DNA of 64,000 bases, from contig JAAZZG010000009.1 in the NCBI GenBank assembly GCA_014237715.1, forward strand, positions 20,710 to 84,709, in the 5' to 3' direction. Origin of the DNA: Acidimicrobiales bacterium (lineage in GTDB: Bacteria; Actinomycetota; Acidimicrobiia; Acidimicrobiales; MedAcidi-G1). The translations under genes were made by a program, and so were the position numbers. Below the pieces are notes generated by a model that searched no databases, was not told where the DNA came from, and worked only from the letters and a program-made list of their open reading frames with translations. Positions 34,077 to 41,183 of the stretch are shown here, piece after piece. Every line of letters starts with the position of its first letter. The first letter of the stretch is position 1.

Positions 34077-34448
34077 TCAGGCGTCGAGGAGTTCGAGGAT
34101 GCGATCGGCCGGTCGGGCGACTACCGCCCGGTTGCCGAGGATTCCAATGGGTCGCTGCATGAGTTCGGGATGTGCGGAGATCAGGTCGACCACGACGGTC
34201 GGATCATCCAGCGACGTCGGGTCGACGTTCAACGCATCGAACCCGTCTCCCCGGCGGATCATCTCCGCGGGGCCCAGAGTGACCATGTCCAGGATTCGCA
34301 CCAGCAGGTCGTGATCCAGCGGCTCGTCCATGTATTCGATGACGTCGAACTCGACGCCGCGCTCCTCGAGAATTCCGAGGGCGCCCCGGGACTTCCCTCA
34401 GACCGGGTTGTGGACGAGTAGGAGCCGACGGGGATCGATGGAAGCCAT
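34077..34448 (-). CDS. ArsC/Spx-family selenoprotein (UGA at the catalytic position), copy 1
   Basis: Read through one in-frame TGA (34400-34398), the frame gives a 123-residue ArsC-fold protein. The N-terminus is LLLVHNPVUGKSRGALGILE, where U is the TGA codon at residue 17. The arsenate reductase family has H-N-P-x-C-x-x-S-R here, so the TGA replaces exactly the catalytic cysteine. The C-terminus RPIGILGNRAVVARP matches the family's conserved end. A SECIS-like hairpin follows the TGA. Start ATG 34448 has a TACCGT box 7 nt upstream. It is probably a thiol- or arsenate-type oxidoreductase; the real substrate is unknown. Ordinary calling would report only the 84 residues from 34331. Pseudogene is the alternative, but it would be a coincidence to hit this codon. 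Confidence 0.87.
34359..34384 (-). promoter_or_regulatory. SECIS-like hairpin of ArsC selenoprotein 1
   Basis: Within the coding region: GCGC + CCTCG, loop GAATTCT, CGAGG + bulged A + GCGC. The apical loop starts with G and begins after 22 nt following the UGA, inside the 16-37 nt range described for bacterial SECIS elements. Confidence 0.65.
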
Positions 34449-38484: not shown

Positions 38485-38928
<444 letters not shown>

Positions 38929-39923: not shown

Positions 39924-40229
39924 ATGATCATCCGGGTTGATGCAGCGGGTGAGATCCGGGTCGACGAGTACGACGTGTTCACCGACTTCCACGTCGAGGA
40001 CAGCGCCGGGTTTTCCACCGGTGACCTGGCAGCCACCATGGGCGAGGGCACCCGGGCCGACGGCGAACACCTCTGGATCGCCGAGACGGCCGTCCGTCAC
40101 TGGCTGTCTGGCCGCATCGACGAAACCTGGGACGAGGGCTTCTCGGGGATGTTCGACTTCGCCCGTTCCAAGGGCTGGACCAACGACGCAGGCACCCATC
40201 TACGGACCCACGTCGAGCACCCCGACTGA
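39924..40229 (+). CDS. Hypothetical acidic protein, 101 residues
   Basis: A small soluble protein rich in Asp, Glu, His and Trp, without cysteine or membrane segments (FHVEDSAGFSTGDL; HLWIAETAVRHWLSGRIDE). I do not recognise the family. GAGGG stands about 10 nt before the ATG. It lies 77 nt upstream of the second ArsC-like selenoprotein gene on the same strand and may share its transcript. Confidence 0.7.
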   Translation: MIIRVDAAGEIRVDEYDVFTDFHVEDSAGFSTGDLAATMGEGTRADGEHLWIAETAVRHWLSGRIDETWDEGFSGMFDFARSKGWTNDAGTHLRTHVEHPD

Positions 40230-40306
40230 TTCGCTTCCGATCGACTCGTTCCAGACTGAGAACCCGGCCCATCGAGTTTCGGGCCCCGAACATGACAGGA
40301 GTTTTC

Positions 40307-40693
40307 GTGGCAGACCTCACCGTCCTGCACAACCCCCATTGACACGCATCCAAGAACGCCTTGGCGGTCGCCGAGGAGTTGGGAGTCGACGCCCACGTCG
40401 TGCTCTACATGAAGGAACCACCGGACGAGGCGTTGCTGCGACGCATCGCCGCCGGGCTGGCCGACCCCGTGGAGGACCTGGTCCGTAAGGACTCGCAGTT
40501 CAAGAAGCTGGAGTTGGTCGAGGAAGATTACGTGGGCGACGTCGACGCGGTGGTTGAACTACTGGCCCGCCGCAAAGCTCTCCTGCAGCGACCCATACTG
40601 GTGCGGGGCGATCTGGCAGGCGATGGACCGCTGGTGGCCACCGTGGGACGGCCCAAGGACCGGCTCTACGAGTTCATCGGTGGCGGAAGCTGA
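40307..40693 (+). CDS. ArsC/Spx-family selenoprotein (UGA at the catalytic position), copy 2
   Basis: Read through an in-frame TGA (40340-40342), the frame gives 128 residues starting ADLTVLHNPHUHASKNALAV, with the TGA codon as residue 12. The ArsC pattern H-N-P-x-C-x-x-S-(R/K) fits with U in place of the catalytic cysteine. The C-terminus LLQRPILVRGDLAGDGPLVA then VGRPKDRLYE is the usual family end. AGGAG lies 5 nt before the GTG; ATG 40292 is an in-frame alternative. A SECIS-like hairpin follows the TGA. It diverges strongly from copy 1 in sequence, so these are two separate subfamilies, not a recent duplication. It is followed immediately by an RraA-like gene. Standard calling would begin at 40361 or later and lose the active site. 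Confidence 0.88.
40355..40380 (+). promoter_or_regulatory. SECIS-like hairpin of ArsC selenoprotein 2
   Basis: CCTTGGC and GCCGAGG form a 7-bp stem (one G-U pair) closing a GGTC loop, extended by AAC/GTT across a G-A mismatch. The loop begins after 23 nt following the UGA. GGUC matches the start of the apical loop of the E. coli fdhF SECIS element. Confidence 0.75.
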
Positions 40694-41183
40694 GCCTGAA
40701 TTGAAATCCACCGCCGACCTTTGCGACGACCACGGCGATGCGGTTCAGGTGCTGACCGGCGGCTTCGGGTCCTACGGAGGCGTGGACGCCTTTCGTGGAC
40801 CGGTGTCGACCCTGGCCGTGTTCGAGGACAACACGTTGGTCCGTGACGCGTTGACCGAGCGGGGTGACGGTCGCGTCCTGGTGGTGGCCGGTGGCGGCTC
40901 GGAGCAGTGCGCGCTGGTCGGCGGCAACCTCGGTGTTCTGGCTGTCGAAAACGGTTGGTCGGGCATCGTGGTGGACGGCTGCGTCCGCGACGTCGCCGAA
41001 CTCCGAGCATCGGCCGTTGGTATCCGGGCCAGGGGCACATGCCCCCGCCGGAGCGTCAAGAGTGGTGCGGGCGATCGTGACGTACCGGTCACCGTGGCAG
41101 GGGTGGACCTAGTGCCCGGCATGTGGTTGTGGGCCGACGACGACGGCATCGTCGTGGCCAAGACCGATCTGGGGCGGACCTAG
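40680..41183 (+). CDS. RraA-family protein (regulator of RNase E / HMG aldolase)
   Basis: A 167-residue RraA-fold protein. It matches the group annotated as RNase E inhibitor RraA or 4-hydroxy-4-methyl-2-oxoglutarate aldolase: STADLCDDHGDAVQVL, FEDNTLVRDALTE, GRVLVVAGGGSEQCALVGG, GIVVDGCVRDVAEL and ADDDGIVVA. The G-x-G and R-D residues of the aldolase active site are present. The GTG at 40680 overlaps the selenoprotein gene by 14 nt; the TTG at 40701 gives a more typical N-terminus. Which activity it has is open. Confidence 0.88.
   Translation: MAEAEPELKSTADLCDDHGDAVQVLTGGFGSYGGVDAFRGPVSTLAVFEDNTLVRDALTERGDGRVLVVAGGGSEQCALVGGNLGVLAVENGWSGIVVDGCVRDVAELRASAVGIRARGTCPRRSVKSGAGDRDVPVTVAGVDLVPGMWLWADDDGIVVAKTDLGRT

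Follow-up and report, generated by a model that had tools for sequence, protein, structure and literature searches.

UxxS arsenate reductase selenoproteins have been described since 2005, when 14 sequences were reported from the Sargasso Sea; 77 sequences, the 'ArsC 1' of GOS, were listed in 2008, and the group appears in reviews of 2022 and 2026, as far as the accessible portions of these sources go. In this study, we analysed a 64,000-nucleotide stretch of DNA from an Acidimicrobiales bacterium (the window), which holds two ArsC-family genes with an in-frame TGA, here called copy 1 and copy 2, and examined copy 2 as a possible selenoprotein gene. Measured against what those portions describe, copy 2 is a well-supported further case of a known type. 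The reading that we prefer, with a probability of roughly 0.8, is that the UGA of this ArsC-family gene is read as selenocysteine, giving what is likely a selenolate arsenate reductase. Taken by itself, the decoding of the UGA at the catalytic column as selenocysteine appears close to certain from the sequence comparisons, and the arsenate reduction step, also taken by itself, is predicted at slightly better than even odds. The product would likely belong to a kind of selenium-based oxyanion reductase that earlier work had predicted from ocean DNA. In the open-licence literature we found neither a paper on selenoproteins of 'Acidimicrobi' nor an experimental test of a Sec-ArsC enzyme.

The copy 2 gene and its relatives

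Copy 2 begins with a GTG codon (40307-40309) and runs for 116 codons after the in-frame TGA to a terminal TGA (40691-40693); an in-frame ATG at 40292 is a possible alternative start. The coordinates that the original prediction had given for the AGGAG 5 nt before the GTG, for the in-frame TGA and for the intact frame were all confirmed (Table 1). The protein scores 38.7 bits against PF03960, above the Pfam gathering cut-off of 24, with a query that held the terminal TGA as one extra residue, as it also did in the 298-genome search and in the comparison of the two copies; the NCBIfam scan scores reported below were obtained with a query free of that residue. In the source genome (2.33 Mb, 75 contigs, 92.6% complete), PF03960 matches copy 2 and copy 1 only. 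Copy 1 is real; the two genes lie 6 kb apart and are 37% identical, in agreement with the earlier view that they differ strongly.

Table 1. Features of the copy 2 locus and its paralogue (window coordinates)
Feature	Position	Strand	Basis
Copy 2, predicted ArsC-family selenoprotein gene, 128 residues, predicted Sec12	40307..40693	+	PF03960; frame read through one TGA
AGGAG, putative ribosome-binding site, 5-nt spacer to GTG	40297..40301	+	sequence; function by inference
In-frame TGA at the catalytic column, predicted selenocysteine	40340..40342	+	homologue codon counts
Predicted bacterial SECIS hairpin, 7-bp stem, GGTC loop (40366-40369)	40359..40376	+	covariation, synonymous-codon null
Copy 1, divergent ArsC-family paralogue, in-frame TGA 34398-34400	34077..34448	-	PF03960, 36.1 bits; TGA in same column
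rraA-like gene, 14-nt overlap with copy 2 end	40680..41183	+	PF03737, 138.4 bits

Two sets of relatives were used. Of 298 genomes drawn from the order, 183 had a match to the copy 2 query and 190 to the copy 1 query. In the fetched part of these matches, with the weaker ones left out, 139 genomes contribute 148 distinct ArsC sequences. The second set holds 80 loci from named public genomes, the best 80 of 214 relatives, all in assemblies other than that of the window, although some come from the same genomes as in the 148-homologue set. These 80 are labelled mostly Acidimicrobiales, Acidimicrobiaceae, Acidimicrobiia, 'Candidatus Microthrix' or Actinomycetota MAGs, with one Verrucomicrobiia, and the nearest of them are up to 92% identical to copy 2; these nearest named relatives put the organism in the Acidimicrobiales. 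AG-410-I20 and AG-414-N20, which are among these loci and carry no MAG label, are taken for single cells.

The surroundings of copy 2 vary between lineages. Among the loci fetched, the rraA-like neighbour is found in family f1 only, and the gene at 39924-40229, which encodes a 101-residue protein with no Pfam or NCBIfam match, has copy 2 as its neighbour in just two genera, both of that family. Further upstream, at 38590-38928, lies a P-II (glnB) gene, whose cluster is found near copy-2-like genes in nine core loci, within 500 bases in seven of them. An arsenic operon as the context of copy 2 was considered and rejected, no recurring arsenic gene having been seen among the 148 loci: when ORFs up to roughly 1.5 to 3.5 kb away were clustered, no cluster occurred in more than 17 of them, and the 22 most frequent clusters included nothing that looked arsenic-like from the first 120 residues, with library scans covering some of the window neighbours.

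Arsenate-site residues, predicted fold and possible thiol partner

The reaction scheme of copy 2 is taken by analogy with ArsC. In this scheme Sec12 would attack arsenate held by three arginines, and copy 1 would work in the same way. The classical arsenate-reductase residue set, with a nucleophile at position 12, is complete in copy 2. Across the homologues, Arg60, Arg94 and Arg107 (E. coli numbering) are found in 148 of 148, Asn9 in 147, Ser15 in 142 and His8 in 140, and the motif is UxxS in all 80 copy-2-like Sec rows. According to the accessible part of PMC5593903, a study of PF03960, these six residues are needed for arsenic resistance or belong to the active site. Since the copy 2 protein contains no Cys at all, an outside thiol system would have to resolve the adduct; 129 of the 148 proteins likewise have no Cys besides the catalytic residue. 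The genome holds one glutaredoxin-like match, for which the best NCBIfam match is mycoredoxin (76.6, below the cut-off of 89.5), and an MshC-like gene that scores 447 bits, below 485, with a model that also matches all 14 control genomes. As a suggestion, mycothiol and mycoredoxin may supply the resolving thiol, in place of glutathione and glutaredoxin.

A different product is the alternative that survives best, and we regard it as a serious contender at somewhat less than even odds. Copy 2 would still be a selenoprotein, but it would act on another oxyanion or on a protein or small-molecule disulfide, or it would be an Spx-like transcription regulator, and not an arsenate enzyme. The three arginines together with His8, Asn9 and Ser15, sets which in the accessible part of the literature separate ArsC from homologues of other function, argue against this, as does, for Spx, a motif that is UxxS and not the CxxC of that protein as described there. 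The score of copy 2 against TIGR00014, 'arsenate reductase (glutaredoxin)', on the other hand, is 65.3 bits and thus below the cut-off of 106.05; neither ACR3 nor ArsB was matched in any of the 31 family genomes searched, which are at least 90% complete in 20 cases; and the loci, in which no recurring arsenic neighbour was seen, are in line with another role. The fold is consistent with either product: the predicted copy 2 model (C for U, 51 sequences, mean pLDDT 84.3) has the ArsC/Spx/YffB fold and matches all three equally, so that this comparison fails to separate ArsC from Spx and YffB. A selenolate arsenate reductase remains the product that we prefer.

UGA at the catalytic column and its predicted decoding

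At the catalytic column, the 148 ArsC homologues have TGA in 106 cases, TGC in 41 and TGT in one, and no other codon. If the UGA were a true stop, copy 2 would be the remains of a decayed gene, or a protein of 110 residues would start from TTG at 40361. However, TAA and TAG never occur at this column in the 148 sequences, the conserved HNP loop is encoded before the UGA, and TGA, the GGTC loop and all seven stem pairs of the hairpin are kept in 80 of 80 named loci (best 80 of 214). A 110-aa frame from this TTG is indeed present in the mechanical ORF list, and versions of about 109 aa are found in public catalogues. In addition, the 11 codons before the UGA have no clear purifying signal when compared with 10 family members: the 110 codons compared there hold 27 synonymous-only differences and 30 that change the amino acid, as against 419 and 247 for the 1120 codons downstream of the UGA, in a comparison aligned without regard to gaps. 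On balance, we consider a true stop very improbable.

The catalogue entries themselves were looked at more closely. The protein catalogue search gave 1165 relatives, of which 120 are listed, and those with at least 65% identity cover 71-86% of copy 2. Among seven listed proteins that were inspected, two begin after the UGA, two have W (P0071) or G (P0032) at the Sec column and three have Cys; two inspected proteins of at least 65% identity are without the catalytic end. The W and G look as if these genes had been called with genetic codes 4 and 25, respectively, and the catalogue versions of copy 2, among the matches listed, point to an annotation fault.

A sequencing or assembly error of TGC or TGT, for which the fragmentation of the assembly into 75 contigs might speak, is refuted in practice: in the test by other assemblies that the original prediction had put forward, TGA and no TGC or TGT was found in 80 of 80 near relatives (best 80 of 214), and TGA is also the codon in 106 of the 148 order-level homologues. 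Genome-wide reassignment of UGA, for example to Trp or Gly as in P0071 and P0032, has a negligible chance of being correct, as UGA is otherwise a stop, ending 8 of 13 hand-picked neighbourhood genes (copy 2 included), and tRNA-Sec is present.

For the reading of UGA as selenocysteine, SelB and tRNA-Sec would act at a hairpin just downstream. The arms of this hairpin are at 40359-40365 and 40370-40376, and 23 nt lie between the TGA and the hairpin. The 7-bp stem, the GGTC loop and the 23-nt distance were as previously described, but the further AAC/GTT extension claimed along with them is complete in just 9 of 58 rows. Folded alone, the hairpin has a modest advantage (z -1.95, with 8 of 200 shuffles equally good). 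Across species, in an alignment of 58 rows made up of 57 of the 80 named loci and the window, 406 of 406 cells of the stem are paired, with all seven pairs in 58 of 58 rows, and the stem placed at slid positions pairs only 29-68%. Double-sided changes are seen in 19 cells of this alignment, and 0 of 500 shuffles were as high; in 14 rows one pair has gone from G-C to A-U, and in five rows another has gone from C-G to U-A. Two coarser covariation measures, the count of doubly changed pairs (2) and that of further pair types (6), were unremarkable, with 219 of 500 shuffles each. In the core group, which comprises 60 of the 106 Sec rows, 57 of them distinct, all seven pairs are present in 54 of the 57 distinct rows, compared with a mean of 7.7% and a maximum of 19.3% for the synonymous-codon null, and the 42 Cys rows, taken as the control for these columns, were 59.5% paired. 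The other 20 of the 80 copy-2-like Sec rows misfit the 7-bp stem (one has six pairs and none has seven); 17 of them instead keep a stem located elsewhere (0.95, against a null maximum of 0.72). These data show that the copy 2 hairpin is kept by compensatory changes, beyond chance across species. Rfam at gathering level gave nothing but a tRNA across the window.

The source genome contains selA, selB, selC and selD, each above its cut-off. The tRNA-Sec is located at C22:227315 (67.5 bits, anticodon TCA), selA and selB are adjacent at C22:241028-243367 (396.6 and 268.4 bits), and selD is found at C11:80011-80934 (352 bits). The selD gene has its own in-frame TGA (HGAGUGCK), and selenophosphate synthetase, its product, looks like a selenoprotein too. 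The absence of selB or selC had been proposed as a test, and both selB and tRNA-Sec are present. Conservation, covariation and the presence of the Sec machinery all back the claim that a UGA stands at the catalytic Cys position in a gene of the ArsC family other than copy 1.

Across the order, 185 of 298 genomes gave a selA match, 175 of them above the cut-off. When genomes with a best E-value of 1e-40 or better are counted as selA-bearing (179 genomes), selA is present in 97 of 98 genomes with the UGA form versus 16 of 41 with Cys forms only; the lone UGA genome without selA, G170, is 83% complete. Within genus g90, G232 has the UGA form and selA, and G102, which is 99% complete, has TGC and no selA match; the two are a natural Sec/Cys pair within one genus. 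The genomes, the machinery and this pair now link a selenoprotein family from sea-water surveys to a bacterial order, and the benefit of selenium to an arsenate-type reductase therefore becomes a directly testable question.

With regard to the history of the two copies, a quick tree of 148 rows (115 columns, Sec column masked) requires at least seven Sec/Cys changes, three of them forced by starred branches. On this short tree, neither a single clade of all Sec rows (p-AU 0.063) nor a single clade of the copy-2 Sec rows (AU p 0.188) was rejected. Among the family f1 genomes listed in the draw, copy 2 is present in 11 of 11 and copy 1 in 7 of 11. In G227, a genome of the same genus, copy 2 is kept, and the two flanking genes of copy 1 (C25:1-2600), by reading an acyl-CoA ligase-like and a ybaK-like gene, have no copy 1 between them. 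The copy 1 hairpin alone folds no better than shuffles (z -0.22). In a test that took 23 of 26 copy-1-like rows, its inner stem is above the synonymous null in seven family rows (0.88, null maximum 0.86) and in eight f36 rows (0.98, maximum 0.85), and within the null in seven distinct f56 rows (0.67; mean 0.61, maximum 0.76); the outer stem in the family rows just equals the null maximum of 0.96. A wider scheme for acidimicrobial actinobacteria, which we put forward as speculative and rather unlikely in its entirety, would have two old and separate Sec-ArsC subfamilies that are linked to mycothiol and mycoredoxin, operate with no arsenite pump and do a job other than classical arsenic export, with Sec giving way to Cys in lineages that lose the selenium machinery. 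If true, this would mean a selenium-dependent oxyanion reductase with such a job.

Comparison with known ArsC-like proteins

Copy 2 shares its fold with YffB and Spx. In the accessible part of PMC3169414, a YffB without the arginine triad and an Spx with CxxC are described; unlike these, copy 2 has a complete arginine triad and UxxS, and the CxxC redox switch of Spx is absent from it. Compared with the glutaredoxin-dependent E. coli ArsC (PDB 1i9d), to which it is 25% identical, copy 2 has Sec for Cys12, falls below the TIGR00014 cut-off and shows no recurring arsenic neighbour in the loci studied; a further difference is a 7-residue insert before the last Arg, relative to most homologues studied here. 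Another ArsC-like selenoprotein is the one named 'Arsenate reductase 2' in GOS and listed as NF041106 by the 2026 review, but its motif is UxxC in the accessible portions of these sources, whereas that of copy 2 is UxxS, and NF041106 is absent from the NCBIfam matches of copy 2 up to an E-value of 0.01.

The closest likeness is to the UxxS ArsC proteins of 2005 and 2008. As far as the accessible portions of those papers describe them, they and copy 2 have in common the assignment to COG1393/pfam03960, Sec at the position of the catalytic Cys, the UxxS motif and a predicted SECIS with a G in the small loop after the UGA; the comparison of copy 2 itself with the published cluster covered the UxxS motif and pfam03960, which agree. 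Whereas the earlier proteins, according to the same portions, came from metagenome surveys, copy 2 is placed here in a genome and a lineage, together with the Sec machinery, a second paralogue and a selA-linked exchange of Sec and Cys.
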